Source of the DNA: Allgaiera indica
GTDB lineage: Bacteria; Pseudomonadota; Alphaproteobacteria; Rhodobacterales; Rhodobacteraceae
Length of the DNA stretch: 64,000 bases
NCBI RefSeq assembly: GCF_900106675.1
Contig: NZ_FNOB01000007.1
Coordinates: forward strand, 124,001-188,000
Reading direction: 5' to 3'
Part shown: positions 6,417 to 11,939 of the stretch, piece after piece
Layout: every line of letters begins with the position of its first letter
Numbering within the stretch: the first letter of the stretch is position 1
Notes under the pieces: generated by a model
What the model saw: the letters and a program-made list of their open reading frames with translations, nothing else
The model's database searches: none
Told to the model about the DNA's origin: nothing
Program-made: the position numbers and the translations under genes

Positions 6417-7691
6417 ATGGGGTTCAAGCATTGGAATGCGGGGGGCTATTCGGGGCTTCGGGTGCTGGCCGAGGGCCTGTTGGGCAACAAGGGCTGGACG
6501 CCCGCCTGGCGCGATCCCGCGCCCAAGGACAGCTATGACGCGGTGATCATCGGCGGCGGCGGCCATGGCCTTTCGACCGCCTATTACCTGGCGAAAAACC
6601 ACGGGCTGACCAATATCGCCGTGCTCGAAAAGGGCTATCTTGGCGGCGGCAACGTGGGGCGCAACACCACGATCGTGCGGGCGAACTACTTCCTGCCGGG
6701 CAATTCCGAGTTCTATTCCCATTCGCTCAAGCTCTGGGAAGGGCTGGAGCAGGAACTGAATTACAACGTGATGCATTCGCAGCGCGGTCTGATCAACCTG
6801 TTCCATTCCGACGGCCAGCGTGACGCCTTCGCGCGGCGCGGCAACGCGATGGTGAACCAGGGCGACGACGCGGTGCTGCTGGATCGGGCGGGGGTGCGCC
6901 GGATGCTGCCCTATCTGGATTTCGACAATGCGCGCTTTCCGATCTACGGCGGCCTGTACCATGCCCGCGGCGGCACCGCGCGCCATGACGCGGTGGCCTG
7001 GGGCTATGCGCGCGGCGCCGACCGGTTGGGCGTGGACCTGATCCAGAATTGCGAAGTCACGGGGATCGACGTCGAAGGTGGGCGCGTCTTGGGCGTGCAG
7101 ACCACGCGCGGCGCGATCAAGGCGCGCAAGGTGGCGATGATCGTCGCCGGGCGTTCGGGCCAGGTGGCGGCGATGGCGGGGATGCGGCTGCCGGTGGAAA
7201 GCCACATCCTGCAGGCCTTCGTGACCGAGGGGCTGAAGCCCTGCATCGACCATGTCATCAGCTTCGGCATGGGGCATTTCTACATCTCGCAATCGGACAA
7301 GGGCGGCCTCGTCTTCGGCGGCGATCTGGATTTCTACGCCTCCTACGCGCAGCGCGGCAACCTGCCGATGGTCGAACATGTGATGGAGGCCGGCATGGCG
7401 CTGATGCCGATGATCGGGCGGCCGAAGGTGCTGCGCTCTTGGGGCGGCATCATGGACATGACCCCCGACGGCAGCCCGATCATCGACAAGACCCATATCG
7501 ACGGCCTGTTCATCGATTGCGGCTGGAACTACGGCGGCTTCAAGGCGGTGCCGGCCTCGGGCTGGTGCATGGCCCATCTGATGGCCACCGGCGAAAGCCA
7601 TGAGGTCGCCCGCGGCTTCCGCCTGAACCGCTTCGAGACCGGCCATCTGCTGGACGAGGAAGGCACCGGCAGTCAGCACAATTTGCACTAG
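6417..7691 (+). CDS. soxB: Sarcosine oxidase subunit beta
   Basis: A 424-residue subunit of heterotetrameric sarcosine oxidase, which demethylates sarcosine to glycine, making hydrogen peroxide and 5,10-methylene-tetrahydrofolate. The N-terminal FAD-binding motif DAVIIGGGGHGLSTAYYL lies at about residues 38-55, and the family pattern GGNVGRNTTIVRANY follows. The FMN and FAD sites of the complex sit in or at the beta subunit. The ATG at 6417 gives the usual N-terminus MGFKHWNAGGYSG; its ribosome-binding site is weak (AAGGATCGGGG). Upstream, CGCGAC and GTCGCG (6312-6330) form a six-pair inverted repeat that could be an operator. First gene of the sox operon, but separated from soxD by an unrelated gene. 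Confidence 0.95.
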   Translation: MGFKHWNAGGYSGLRVLAEGLLGNKGWTPAWRDPAPKDSYDAVIIGGGGHGLSTAYYLAKNHGLTNIAVLEKGYLGGGNVGRNTTIVRANYFLPGNSEFYSHSLKLWEGLEQELNYNVMHSQRGLINLFHSDGQRDAFARRGNAMVNQGDDAVLLDRAGVRRMLPYLDFDNARFPIYGGLYHARGGTARHDAVAWGYARGADRLGVDLIQNCEVTGIDVEGGRVLGVQTTRGAIKARKVAMIVAGRSGQVAAMAGMRLPVESHILQAFVTEGLKPCIDHVISFGMGHFYISQSDKGGLVFGGDLDFYASYAQRGNLPMVEHVMEAGMALMPMIGRPKVLRSWGGIMDMTPDGSPIIDKTHIDGLFIDCGWNYGGFKAVPASGWCMAHLMATGESHEVARGFRLNRFETGHLLDEEGTGSQHNLH

Positions 7692-7701
7692 GGGACGGGT
7701 G

Positions 7702-8202
7702 ATGAGCAAGTTGGGCGTAATCGTCGAATATGCTGCTGTCGATTGGGCGGAGGATACGCGCGCGCAATACACAGTTTTCGATGAAGCCCAGTATGGCAAT
7801 GATCCCTACTGGGGGCCAATCATCGAACGGCTGAAAGCGTCGAATGGTCTGTATGTCTTCTATGACAGTCTGGCTCGTCCCTTATATGTAGGCATCGCGC
7901 CAACACAGCCGATTTGGGATCGAGCAAACCAGTCATACAATAAATACCGTGACCGCCAATTGAAGATACCCGGGGTGGTCCACCCCGTGGGTAGAGGCCG
8001 ATACGACGCGACCAAGACGCGCAAAATTAGTCGTAGTGGCTTCTCTCTTGCAGATGTCGCCTATTACTTCTCTGCTTATGAGGTTTCCAAGGATCTAATC
8101 GGCGGCTTGGAGGCCTTCGCGATCCGAGCATTCGGAGGTGTCCTCTTGAACACGAAGTTCGAAGGGAATGGAAAACTTAGTATCAACATGCGGGATAAAT
8201 AG
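7702..8202 (+). CDS. GIY-YIG-like domain protein inserted in the sox operon
   Basis: A 166-residue protein not belonging to sarcosine oxidase. It shows the parts of a GIY-YIG nuclease fold in order: GLYVFY (G49-Y51, the GIY position), PLYVGIA (Y62-G64, the YIG position), an arginine in IWDRANQSYNKYRDR (R74 or later), LIGGLEAFAIRAFG with a candidate catalytic E137, and LLNTKFEG with N150, the usual terminal Asn. Base composition is visibly more AT-rich than its neighbours, suggesting later acquisition. It starts 10 nt after soxB and ends 2 nt before soxD, so it is probably co-transcribed. A GTG at 7699 is an alternative start. DNA cleavage is inferred from the fold only. Confidence 0.6.
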   Translation: MSKLGVIVEYAAVDWAEDTRAQYTVFDEAQYGNDPYWGPIIERLKASNGLYVFYDSLARPLYVGIAPTQPIWDRANQSYNKYRDRQLKIPGVVHPVGRGRYDATKTRKISRSGFSLADVAYYFSAYEVSKDLIGGLEAFAIRAFGGVLLNTKFEGNGKLSINMRDK

Positions 8203-8204
8203 CC

Positions 8205-8471
8205 GTGAGAATCACCTGTCCCCATTGCGGCGCGCGCGACCGGCGCGAATTCTATTACCTGGGCGCCGAGGATTACCTGCACCGCCCCGCCGAGGATGCC
8301 GCCCCCGCGGCCTGGGACGCCTATCTTCACCTGCGCGACAACCCCGCCGGGGCGACGCGCGATCTGTGGTATCACGAGCAGGGCTGCGGCGCCTGGCTGC
8401 TGGTGACGCGCAACACCGTGACGCATGAGATCCTCGGCGTCCGGGCCGTCGACGGGGAGGCCACGGAATGA
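8205..8471 (+). CDS. soxD: Sarcosine oxidase subunit delta
   Basis: An 88-residue small subunit of heterotetrameric sarcosine oxidase. The zinc ligands known for the family are present: C5 and C8 in ITCPHCG, and H57 and C61 in WYHEQGCGAW. It binds the alpha/beta core and helps assembly rather than catalysis. The start is GTG at 8205, two bases after the stop of the inserted GIY-YIG-like gene; no strong ribosome-binding site is seen, so translation may depend on the gene before it. The stop overlaps the soxA ATG (ATGA, 8468-8471). Confidence 0.94.
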   Translation: MRITCPHCGARDRREFYYLGAEDYLHRPAEDAAPAAWDAYLHLRDNPAGATRDLWYHEQGCGAWLLVTRNTVTHEILGVRAVDGEATE

Positions 8472-11404
8472 GACTTTCTGGCGGCCTTCTCGACCGGTCC
8501 AGCCGGGTCGATTTCACCTTCGACGGGCATGCCTATCAGGGCTTCGGCGGCGATACGCTGGCCTCGGCATTGATGGCGGGCGGCGTGCGGCTGATGGGCC
8601 GCAGCTTCAAGTATCACCGCCCGCGCGGGGTGATGACGGCGGGCTCGGAAGAGCCCAACGCGCTGGTGCAGATCGACCGGGGCAGCGGGCGCGCGGCCCA
8701 GACCACGCCGAACGTTCGCGCCACCATGCAAGAGATCTACCCCGGGCTTTCGGCGCGCAGTCAGAATCGCTTTCCGTCGCTCGCCTATGACTTCGCGGGC
8801 ATCAATGATCTGCTCTCGCCGTTCCTGAGCGCGGGGTTCTACTACAAGACGTTCATGTGGCCGCGCGGCCTTTGGGAAAAGCTGTACGAGCCGCTGATCC
8901 GTCGCGCGGCGGGGCTGGGGGCGCTGTCGGGCCGCACCGACGAGGACCCGTATGAGAAGGCCTGGGCGTTTTGCGACGTCCTGGTGATCGGCGCGGGGCC
9001 CGCGGGCCTGGCGGCGGCGCTGGCGGCGGGCCGCGCGGGGGCCGATGTGATCCTGGCCGACGAGGACACCCGCCCCGGCGGGCGCCTGTTGTCGGAACGG
9101 CTGGAGGTCGGCGGTCGGTCCGGCGCCGACTGGGCCGCCAGCACGGTGGCCGAACTGGACGCGCTGCCCAACGTCCGCATCATGACCCGCACCACGGTGA
9201 CCGGCGCCTATGACGGCGGCACCTATGGCGCACTGGAACGGGTAGCGCTGCATCTGGCCGATCCGAGGGGGCGGCCGCGCGAATGTTTCTGGCGCATCGT
9301 GGCGAAGCGCGCGGTGCTGGCCGCCGGCGCGCTGGAACGTCCCATCGCCTTTGCCGACAACGACCGTCCCGGCGTGATGCTGGCCGGCGCGCTGCGCAGC
9401 TACCTCAACCGCTATGCCGCCAGCCCCGGCGCCCGGGCGGTGATCTTCGCCAACAACGACGGCGCGCGCCAGACCGCCGCGGATCTGCGTGCCGCCGGGC
9501 TGGAGGTGACCGCGCTGCTCGATGTCCGCCCCGATGCGGCGGACGACCCCGGCGCGCCGACCTTTGCCGGCGCCCAGGTCACCGGGACCGAGGGGCGCCA
9601 CGGGCTGACCAAGGTGCGTTTCCGCCATCAAGGCCGCCTGCACGAGGTCGTGGCCGACGTTCTGGCGGTGTCGGGCGGCTGGAACCCTTCGGTGCATCTG
9701 ACCTGCCACATGGGCGGACGCCCGGTCTGGGATCCGGCGCTTGCGGCCTTCCTGCCGGCGCCCGGCGCCGTGCCGGGGCTAAGCGTCTGCGGCGCGGCGG
9801 CGGGGCGGTTTTCCACCGCCGCCTGCCTGACTGATGGCGCCGAGAAGGGCGCCGAGGCGGCGCAGGCGCTGGGCTTCAGGCCGAAGGCCGCCGAGATCCC
9901 GCAGGCCGAGGACGGCGCCTATGCGATCCGCCCGTTCTGGCTGGTCGAGGGCAAGCGCCGCGCCTGGCTCGACTTCGCCAATGACGTGACCGCGAAGGAC
10001 GTGAAGCTGGCCGCGCAGGAGAACTTCGCCTCGGTCGAACACATGAAGCGCTACACCACCCAGGGCATGGCGCCGGACCAGGGCAAGAATTCGAACGTCA
10101 CCGCGCTGGCGGTGCTGGCCGATGCCACCGGGCGCGGGATCGACGCCACCGGCACCACCACCTTCCGCCCGCCCTATACCCCGGTCTCGATCGCCGCGCT
10201 GGGGGCCGGCGCGCGCGCCAAGGGTTTCGCGCCAGAACGTTTCACCACCTCGCACGCGGCCGCCGCCGAACGCGGCGCGCCGATGATCGAGGCCGGGCTG
10301 TGGTACCGCCCAAGCTATTTCCCACGCCCCGGTGAAGCCACCTGGCGCGCCGCCTGCGACCGCGAGGTGGGCTATGTGCGCGCCGCCGTGGGGATCTGCG
10401 ATGTCTCGACCCTGGGCAAGATCGACATTCAGGGGCCGGATGCGGGGGCGTTCCTAGATTTCGTCTATGCCAACACGTTCTCGACGCTGAAGCCGGGGCG
10501 CGTGCGCTATGGCCTGATGCTGCGCGAAGACGGCCATGTGATGGACGACGGCACCACCGCCTGCCTGGCCGAGGGCCATTACCTGATGACCACCACCACC
10601 GCCGCCGCCGGCGCGGTGATGCGGCATCTGGAATTCGTGCGCCAGGCGCTGCGGCCCGAATTGGACGTGCAGTTCATCTCGGTCACCGAGCAATGGGCGC
10701 AATTTGCCGTTGCCGGGCCGAAATCGCGCGATCTGCTGAACACGCTGCTGGACGCGCCGGTTGACGGCACGGCCTTTGCCTTCATGGCTTGTGGTGAAAT
10801 CTCGGTGCAGGGGGTTGCGGGGCGGCTGTTCCGGATCTCGTTCTCGGGCGAACATGCCTATGAGATCGCGGTGCCGGCACGTTACGGCAACGCGCTCTAC
10901 CGCGATCTTGTGGCGCGGGCCGAGGCGATGGGCGGCGGCGCCTACGGGATGGAGGCGCTGAACGTCCTGCGCATCGAGAAGGGGCTGATCACGCATGCCG
11001 AGATCCACGGACGGGTGACGGCGGGCGATATCGGCATGGGGCGGATGATCAGCGCCAAGAAGGATTGCATCGGCAAGGCGGCGGCGCAGCGCCCCGGCCT
11101 GACCGGGGAGCGCGAGCAATTGGTCGGGCTGAAGCCGGTGCAGCCGAAGCATGAGCTGGGCGCGGGGGCGCATCTTTTCGCGCCGGGCACCAAGGCCGAT
11201 CGGGTGAATGCGCAGGGCTATGTCACCTCGGTCTGCTGGTCGCCGACGCTACACACGAACCTTGGGCTTGGGTTCTTGCTGGACGGCCGCGCCCGGATCG
11301 GCAAGCGCGTGCGGCTGGTCGACCACCTGCGCGGCCTCGATGTGCTGTGCGAGGTGACCGATCCTGTGTTCTTCGACAAGGAAGGGGGGCGCGCCCGTGC
11401 CTAG
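8468..11404 (+). CDS. soxA: Sarcosine oxidase subunit alpha
   Basis: A 978-residue large subunit. The N-terminal ferredoxin-like/FAD segment (FTFDGHAYQGFGGDTLASALMA, then GRSFKYHRPRG) is followed by a Rossmann nucleotide-binding site [19 protein letters not shown] near residue 172, and a C-terminal glycine cleavage T-like domain (from about residue 600) that carries tetrahydrofolate and captures the one-carbon unit as methylene-THF. Length matches the family. Overlaps soxD by four bases and soxG by eight, a compact operon. Confidence 0.96.
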   Translation: MRLSGGLLDRSSRVDFTFDGHAYQGFGGDTLASALMAGGVRLMGRSFKYHRPRGVMTAGSEEPNALVQIDRGSGRAAQTTPNVRATMQEIYPGLSARSQNRFPSLAYDFAGINDLLSPFLSAGFYYKTFMWPRGLWEKLYEPLIRRAAGLGALSGRTDEDPYEKAWAFCDVLVIGAGPAGLAAALAAGRAGADVILADEDTRPGGRLLSERLEVGGRSGADWAASTVAELDALPNVRIMTRTTVTGAYDGGTYGALERVALHLADPRGRPRECFWRIVAKRAVLAAGALERPIAFADNDRPGVMLAGALRSYLNRYAASPGARAVIFANNDGARQTAADLRAAGLEVTALLDVRPDAADDPGAPTFAGAQVTGTEGRHGLTKVRFRHQGRLHEVVADVLAVSGGWNPSVHLTCHMGGRPVWDPALAAFLPAPGAVPGLSVCGAAAGRFSTAACLTDGAEKGAEAAQALGFRPKAAEIPQAEDGAYAIRPFWLVEGKRRAWLDFANDVTAKDVKLAAQENFASVEHMKRYTTQGMAPDQGKNSNVTALAVLADATGRGIDATGTTTFRPPYTPVSIAALGAGARAKGFAPERFTTSHAAAAERGAPMIEAGLWYRPSYFPRPGEATWRAACDREVGYVRAAVGICDVSTLGKIDIQGPDAGAFLDFVYANTFSTLKPGRVRYGLMLREDGHVMDDGTTACLAEGHYLMTTTTAAAGAVMRHLEFVRQALRPELDVQFISVTEQWAQFAVAGPKSRDLLNTLLDAPVDGTAFAFMACGEISVQGVAGRLFRISFSGEHAYEIAVPARYGNALYRDLVARAEAMGGGAYGMEALNVLRIEKGLITHAEIHGRVTAGDIGMGRMISAKKDCIGKAAAQRPGLTGEREQLVGLKPVQPKHELGAGAHLFAPGTKADRVNAQGYVTSVCWSPTLHTNLGLGFLLDGRARIGKRVRLVDHLRGLDVLCEVTDPVFFDKEGGRARA

Positions 11405-11939
11405 CCTGATCACCACCTCGGCCCTTCAGGGCCTCGTTCCGGTCCGCCATGGTGCGCTGGCGCTGACGGACGCGACGCCCGCGCGCATCACCTCGGTCGC
11501 GCCGTTCAAGGGCCGGGAGGCCGATGTCGCGCAGGCGCTGAAACCGCTGGGCCTGCGCTTTGCCGCGCCGAACCAGGTGGTCGAGGCCGCCGCGGGCCGC
11601 TGCGTCTGGACCGGCCCGGGCCAGGCCTTCCTGATCGACGCCGATCCAGCGCCGCTGACCGGCCTTGCCGCGCTGACCGACCAAAGCGACGGCTGGGTCG
11701 GGCTGCGGCTTTCCGGTCCGGGCGCCGAGGATGCGCTGGCGCGGCTGATCCCGATTGACCTGCGCCCCCAGGTCTTCGGGGCAGGAAGCGCGGCGCGTGC
11801 TCCGGTGGGTCACATGCTCTCGGTCGTGATGCGCGCCCCCGAGGGGATCGAGATGCTGTTGTTTCGCTCGATGGCGCGCGCCGCCGTGCACGAGATCGGG
11901 GTGGCGATGGCCGCCCTTGCCGCGCGGCAGCAGGCCTGA
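11397..11939 (+). CDS. soxG: Sarcosine oxidase subunit gamma
   Basis: A 180-residue GcvT-like small subunit of heterotetrameric sarcosine oxidase. It has the family pattern of a degenerate aminomethyltransferase fold, for example TDQSDGWVGLRLSGPGAEDALARL and the C-terminal RSMARAAVHEIGVAM. It is probably structural, capping the alpha subunit. The start is GTG at 11397, overlapping the soxA stop by eight bases, with GGAAGGGGGG before it inside soxA. Last gene of the operon; a copy of the intergenic repeat follows and the next gene is convergent. Confidence 0.93.
   Translation: MPSLITTSALQGLVPVRHGALALTDATPARITSVAPFKGREADVAQALKPLGLRFAAPNQVVEAAAGRCVWTGPGQAFLIDADPAPLTGLAALTDQSDGWVGLRLSGPGAEDALARLIPIDLRPQVFGAGSAARAPVGHMLSVVMRAPEGIEMLLFRSMARAAVHEIGVAMAALAARQQA

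Follow-up and report, generated by a model that had tools for sequence, protein, structure and literature searches.

The window studied here is a stretch of 64,000 nucleotides from Allgaiera indica (contig NZ_FNOB01000007.1, positions 124,001 to 188,000), and it contains an intact gene for a short nuclease-like protein of 166 residues in the middle of a sarcosine oxidase operon. The gene lies at positions 7702..8202 on the forward strand between soxB and soxD, which encode the beta and delta subunits of the same enzyme. It belongs to a rare family and is foreign in composition, and relatives of it are found in the same slot in two other genera. At a likelihood just short of even, we propose that it is a free-standing selfish endonuclease gene of the homing type with a GIY-YIG domain. 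It looks like a self-spreading gene for which enzyme operons are safe homes.

Relatives occupy the soxB/soxD slot, in the same orientation, in Cereibacter changlensis (L030, 60% identity) and Rubellimicrobium mesophilum (L031, 48%). The two congeners of the window's species are without the gene, and their soxB-soxD gaps measure 7 and 9 bp. Seven other genomes were examined in the genus of R. mesophilum. In the five other species with an orthologous soxB (86-92% identity) the gaps are 9, 12, 18, 28 and 58 bp long with zero GIY matches, and the two further genomes returned just more distant soxB copies with no GIY match at these loci. The genus of Cereibacter is represented by a single species in the dataset. 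As a separate observation, more distant soxB paralogues in the genus of R. mesophilum (L116, L122, L123, L125, L126) are followed by 637-880 bp before the aligned soxD start, with no GIY match.

The survey of gaps comprised 32 loci, that is, 30 fetched loci (matches were obtained in 41 of 61 genomes) and those of Cereibacter and R. mesophilum, which were added as known carriers. The GIY gene occurs in three of the 32 gaps, six others measure 191-568 bp, and 23 are shorter than 150 bp. On a soxB tree of these loci, which has a few long rows and weak support at 9 of its 29 inner branches, the carriers require three changes and the starred branches force at least two. A single carrier clade is rejected (log-likelihood 71.7 lower, approximately unbiased test p 0.0006). 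The family as a whole has six members, namely the three sox copies and three forms outside sox operons, which come from a metagenome-assembled genome (MAG), from Rhodanobacter sp. DHG33 and from a prophage. A helix-turn-helix (HTH) region is confined to the latter three, and none was recognised in the sox form. In a six-row GIY tree the three sox proteins are grouped apart from the HTH forms with a support of 98/98. As the carriers form no soxB clade, the gaps of the congeners are empty and the GIY proteins group together, one subfamily has probably reached this one slot repeatedly.

The composition of the insert sets it apart from the operon. Its GC content is 0.513 and its GC content at third codon positions (GC3) is 0.57, compared to 0.652 and 0.87 for soxB, 0.697 and 0.84 for soxD and 0.701 and 0.87 for soxA; GC3 across soxB, soxD, soxA and soxG ranges from 0.84 to 0.87. 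The codon score of -0.33 lies below those of all 41 reference open reading frames (ORFs) of the window (minimum 0.28, median 0.45), a biased reference in that these were chosen with GC3 > 0.78 and AT-rich genes were thereby left out. All six family members have a GC3 of 0.50-0.59. The measured sox or sdh neighbours in Cereibacter, Rubellimicrobium and the MAG reach 0.85-0.94, and the neighbour measured beside the Rhodanobacter and the prophage copy also has a low GC3, 0.59 and 0.63. An earlier reading of this DNA by sequence only had described the gene as more AT-rich than its neighbours and as inserted without breaking the operon, and both descriptions hold: the gene lies 10 bp past soxB and 2 bp ahead of soxD, soxB and soxD are intact in the window, and both are alignable throughout in the other two carriers. 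Its expectation that the gene would be no universal part of soxBD operons with normal codon use agrees with the abnormal codon use and with the 29 of 30 fetched soxB loci that are without the gene. The observation as a whole exceeds what chance would give.

The junctions can be compared base by base with empty alleles. In the empty congener of the window, soxB and soxD are joined as TAG GGGAAGACC ATG CGC, and in the window the order is TAG GGGACGGGTG ATG ... TAG CC GTG AGA. The empty relative of R. mesophilum reads TGA GGGGATGAGACG ATG CGC, and the filled locus TGA GGGGACCGCC ATG ... TGA, where the last stop overlaps GTG AGA. The spacer between soxB and the GIY gene (7692..7701, forward strand) is the 10-bp GGGACGGGTG, whose first four bases, GGGA, also open the 9-bp gap GGGAAGACC of the empty congener G002. 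The newcomer has thus entered downstream of the GGGA-type element that follows soxB and ahead of the soxD start, and it may use the former ribosome-binding site of soxD. The Cereibacter gene runs at its 3' end through GAGGAAGACTG, followed by ATG CGC, and judged by these letters its last codons may double as ribosome-binding site for soxD. Both empty congeners of the window begin soxD with ATG CGC. GTG AGA takes its place in two of the three carriers, the window and R. mesophilum, and was seen at none of the 34 loci that lack the gene; in two of those 34 the aligned soxD position has no standard start. Beyond these few bases the flanks of the window resemble G002 and not the other carriers.

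Silent sites were compared as fourfold-degenerate positions with conserved amino acid and expressed as a fraction of saturation. For the GIY gene the divergence is 1.00 between the window and Cereibacter, 0.99 between the window and Rubellimicrobium and 0.84 between Cereibacter and Rubellimicrobium (43, 31 and 30 sites). The same pairs give, in this order, 0.59, 0.84 and 0.71 for soxB, 0.71, 0.89 and 1.01 for soxD, and 0.67, 0.86 and 0.94 for soxA. The GIY gene is thus more diverged than soxB in all three pairs and more diverged than soxA and soxD in two. The proportion of nonsynonymous differences (pN) in the GIY gene is 0.26-0.38 with the synonymous proportion (pS) saturated, a pattern that fits selection on the protein; a ratio of the corresponding rates (dN/dS) is unobtainable because of this saturation.

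These data bear on the idea of one ancient insertion into the sox operon that was later lost many times by precise deletion. The grouping of the three GIY proteins would follow from it, change counts on a tree cannot by themselves separate gain from loss, and the silent sites of the Cereibacter-Rubellimicrobium pair are no more diverged in the GIY gene than in soxA and soxD. We nevertheless regard it as very improbable. It is at odds with the empty gaps of seven congeners with orthologous soxB and with the lack of a GIY gene in the other surveyed gaps, the low GC3 has remained unameliorated in every carrier, and silent divergence exceeds that of soxB in each pair. Taken together, the empty congeners, the tree, GC3 and the silent sites make separate arrivals of one subfamily the simplest reading.

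The gene could instead be passive cargo that enters a permissive slot by illegitimate or flank recombination, with a house function in repair or recombination or with none, in which case the recurrence would reflect a few transfers of the filled allele. Different genes do fill the slot elsewhere: L058 has a PNPOx-like gene (PF01243, E 5e-9), and L037, L046 and L054 have small ORFs of no convincing family. The GTG AGA start common to two carriers is compatible both with homing and with transfer of a filled allele. We consider passive cargo rather improbable on two counts, since a rare nuclease subfamily is found three times among the 32 loci (two of them added as carriers) and no other filler was seen to recur, and since the flanks give no sign of a long sox segment moving along. 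Given the differing small genes in other genera, soxB/soxD appears to be a general landing slot. Also observed in such gaps was a similar GC-rich stretch in L040, L042 and L044 (gaps of 108-195 bp), GTGAGGC ... CCGAGGGGC[GA]GCGCCCCT, which resembles a repeated intergenic element.

For the proposed homing gene the following course of events can be envisaged. The protein would cut recipient DNA in or near an empty soxB/soxD junction, and repair off the carrier allele would copy the gene in, as with the seg and mob genes of phage T4. The host operon would then express the gene, with its translation start placed beside the soxB stop and ribosomes handed on to soxD. The host would tolerate the insert because it sits between subunit genes and breaks neither. 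Either the sox form would be a reduced version of the HTH form known from the prophage and from an sdhA/sdhB junction, or the derivation would run the opposite way. The gene is optional (it is in none of the window's two congeners and none of the five congeners of R. mesophilum with orthologous soxB), has one precise slot that it probably reached repeatedly, occurs once per genome, retains its active site and leaves its neighbours intact, and this combination is the pattern of free-standing homing genes.

The assignment to the GIY-YIG nucleases, already made in the sequence-only reading, is borne out by the comparison of profiles. A profile of the six family members aligned to ten UvrC/Cho domains in hhalign with a probability of 96.4 (E 1.3e-9 for that one comparison). 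The aligned part covers GIY, YIG and the next helix, including the arginine, and the glutamate and asparagine were placed by eye and by spacing. On the forward strand of the window the family alignment and hhalign locate the stretch from GIY (residues 49-51) to YIG (residues 62-64) at 7846..7893. R74 (7921..7923) aligns with the invariant arginine of the UvrC/Cho domains, which we take to be a catalytic residue there. E137 to N150 span 8110..8151 and are separated by 13 residues, compared to 12 in the UvrC/Cho alignment. G49, Y51, Y62, G64, E137 and N150 are invariant in all six members, so that the conservation of E137 and N150, proposed earlier as a check, is confirmed. Position 74 is arginine in the three sox members and glutamate in the three HTH members. 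We note separately that in the latter (L098, L032, L033) this glutamate, replacing the arginine of the sox forms and of UvrC/Cho, is followed by FNR a few residues later; going by these residues, the activity of the HTH-bearing members may differ from that of the sox forms.

Pfam and PADLOC returned zero family matches for the window protein, which does not reach the cut-off of PF01541 (22.6 bits; the prophage member scores 12.8 bits), and the superfamily claim therefore rests on the profile comparison. The window protein matches PHROG 24961 (E 7e-6). Counting the window's own genome, the profile of this group has matches in 20 of 299 genomes and in one of 14 control genomes; the 21 other loci read from these matches show the GIY-YIG motif in frames recognised by eye as UvrC or Cho. 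Among solved structures the sequence searches found no significant match; the best E-values were 0.056 and 0.36, and a UvrC chain scored 0.61. The AlphaFold2 models have a predicted local distance difference test score (pLDDT) of 40 and 48, too low for a fold, with an order of strands and helices that fits. As the nuclease part gave no usable predicted structure, we infer the GIY-YIG fold from sequence profiles.

The family proved rare in the genomes searched. The gene was found in none of 60 relatives, the window's own genome aside. Two of 385 class genomes match (the own genome and G253), and six of 394 family genomes match at E 0.01, where the own genome and G475 (6e-64) are convincing. The other four matches are marginal (E 0.0025-0.0083) and were excluded from the family; the two that were read lie at TetR-like regulator genes. 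A scan of GTDB species genomes, based on a three-row alignment and two peptide patterns and therefore a lower bound, confirmed four relatives among 63 pattern matches: C. changlensis (locus as in G475), R. mesophilum, Rhodanobacter sp. DHG33 and a MAG labelled Rhizobium sp. Q54 (locus as in G253). The profiles A1 and A2 found the window copy alone in 244 and 299 genomes. Phage and plasmid records contained zero matches for the window or the Rhodanobacter protein, and where two HTH forms matched plasmids or phages, the matches were too weak (E 0.3-9) to be accepted as relatives. No confirmed relative came from scanning viral sequences with the window protein, with A1 or with the Rhodanobacter protein; such scans with A4 and A6 both led to one single prophage contig with a relative of 249 residues. 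A family-profile search of eight genomes or records found one copy in each (two pairs appear to be one genome each), which disfavours a multicopy transposon.

The HTH-bearing relatives provide a second enzyme operon as well as a different kind of neighbourhood. In the MAG a form of 233 residues is situated between the genes for two subunits of succinate dehydrogenase, after the end of sdhA and ahead of sdhB, and the contig starts inside sdhA. The gap measures 738 bp here and 12, 15 and 31 bp in three related genomes of the same family; 27 of 30 fetched sdh loci were measurable. Beside this we observed sdhA-sdhB gaps of 131-895 bp in five more distant alphaproteobacteria (L072, L082, L084, L085, L087). 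In Rhodanobacter sp. DHG33 (L108:8852-11786) the HTH-GIY-YIG gene is part of a low-GC patch of three genes adjoining hutU (urocanase). One partner is a HATPase/DUF4325 ATPase to which PADLOC gives a DrmA score (E 5e-35), the other a protein with a weak likeness to Abi_C/HEPN. From this gene content the patch is possibly an undescribed defence cassette. At the end of a prophage (L098:2582-5979, IMGVR_UViG_2547132375_000001) a C5 methyltransferase, the HTH-GIY-YIG gene and a tyrosine integrase follow in this order. In the AlphaFold model of the prophage member only residues 1-60 are usable, where pLDDT averages 72-85 by block; the GIY part is of low confidence. Foldseek returned 545 matches for this model, none with E < 0.001; rank 1 is a PAS/DNA-binding protein, and the next are mostly XRE-type domains such as P22 c2.

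Such neighbourhoods suggest a defence nuclease housed in a housekeeping operon, that is, a single-gene restriction-like effector against phage DNA which would be expressed with the sox genes and exchanged among Rhodobacterales by recombination in the soxB and soxD flanks. Besides the integrase and methyltransferase next to the prophage copy and the DrmA-scored ATPase and Abi_C/HEPN-like gene in Rhodanobacter, weak matches to PADLOC UzuA speak for it. These are limited to the GIY stretch and occur in three of the six members (Rhodanobacter 3e-4, MAG 6e-4, R. mesophilum 0.006), with zero matches for the window protein (E up to 10), the Cereibacter member and the prophage member. A precedent is CMoRE, a single-component GIY-YIG defence enzyme (PMC12923530). 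The sox loci themselves argue in another direction. Defence genes usually vary their sites, and all three sox-type members occupy the same slot; the neighbours of the sox copies include no identified defence gene, and with two of 394 family genomes convincing the gene is rare. We judge a defence role rather unlikely; it is nevertheless the strongest rival of homing. The sequence-only reading had left the choice between a captured selfish and a captured defence nuclease: recurrence at one slot favours selfish homing, and the prophage and defence-like neighbours of the HTH relatives keep defence alive.

Several observations weigh against homing and should be set beside the proposal. The known sox carriers number three only, and the sdh case is one MAG contig beginning inside sdhA. 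No DNA-binding domain was recognised in the sox forms, although an enzyme that homes to a specific site would normally require one, and cutting and homing by these forms are a proposal. A long co-conversion tract was not seen, and Cereibacter retains ATG CGC. The Cereibacter-Rubellimicrobium pair is less diverged at GIY silent sites (0.84) than in soxA (0.94) and soxD (1.01), and the two GIY trees as well as the soxB tree contain long branches and many weak forks. The HTH-form relatives occupy prophage and defence-like settings. Finally, unrelated genes in L037, L046, L054 and L058 mean that the slot is permissive without a nuclease.

The host operon has the order soxBDAG. All of its genes lie on the forward strand: soxB at 6417..7691 (TIGR01373, E 8e-200), the 166-residue insert of the sox type without N-terminal HTH at 7702..8202, with a frame that is open and intact from the ATG at 7702 to the TAG ending at 8202, soxD at 8205..8471 (PF04267, E 4e-30; TIGR01374 with 92 bits, below the cut-off of 116.5 bits), soxA for the alpha subunit at 8468..11404 (TIGR01372) and soxG for the gamma subunit at 11397..11939 (TIGR01375, E 2e-11, below cut-off). 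A partner methyltransferase was identified neither in the sox operon nor, reading by eye, at the sdh locus. The RNA fold at the GIY/soxD junction does not stand out (z +0.95), and consensus scans gave one promoter-like site (0.6 expected) and one terminator-like site (0.5 expected). In R. mesophilum the soxA frame (L031:5751-8222) stops early after 823 residues with an unusual tail, which suggests a frameshift or an assembly error.

Free-standing homing genes are best known in phages, and neither the GIY-YIG domain nor this free-standing life-style in phages is new. New is where the gene sits, namely in enzyme operons of the chromosome, in one and the same slot in several genera and also in a second enzyme (sdh); this insertion was not described in the titles and abstract openings of the literature searched. 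As a more tentative extension we suggest a class of free-standing homing nucleases in bacterial chromosomes that spare reading frames and are specialised in the few bases between genes for subunits of core metabolic enzymes, which would be marked by ties between subfamily and enzyme (soxB/soxD, sdhA/sdhB), capture of the host translation start and intergeneric jumps into the same slot; the chance that such a class exists seems to us fairly modest. If homing is true, sister species whose chromosomes carry filled and empty alleles at one defined junction would allow homing between bacteria to be tested directly, and odd small genes within tight metabolic operons would be accounted for. If the gene serves defence instead, defence genes can sit outside defence islands and beyond the reach of guilt-by-association searches.

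The family can be compared with several known systems. With the GIY-YIG domain of UvrC and Cho it shares the motif signature, by profile comparison, and a similar Glu-Asn spacing; unlike UvrC, the window protein consists of a single short domain and lacks the remainder of UvrC, and the stretch from the YIG helix to the Glu helix is longer. R.Eco29kI appeared as a remote and unreliable fold match of the low-confidence model of the prophage member (rank 37, probability 0.13). Unlike in R.Eco29kI-type enzymes, no methyltransferase partner was identified for the sox and sdh copies, and the prophage copy is the only one with a C5 methyltransferase nearby. UzuA of the Uzume defence system, which reportedly comes from a 2022 screen of Millman et al., shows a weak likeness in the GIY-YIG stretch of three of six members and none to the window protein. 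CMoRE, a type IV single-component restriction enzyme, is likewise a lone GIY-YIG nuclease (PMC12923530); the present family is set apart from it by reading GxYxFY and by ending shortly after the asparagine. The nearest parallel in life-style is phage T4, which has twelve free-standing homing genes (seg with GIY-YIG, mob with HNH) between conserved genes, with mobE between nrdB and nrdA (PMC2988022), and phages more widely bear such genes near or inside essential genes (PMC10448857). Unlike seg and mob, the present genes lie in bacterial chromosomal operons and not in phages, the sox form is without a recognised DNA-binding module, and their cutting is hypothetical. What they have in common with the T4 genes (PMC2988022) is the arrangement as lone nuclease genes between conserved genes, in the mobE case between two subunits of one enzyme, and here, as in free-standing homing genes, filled and empty alleles occur in close relatives.
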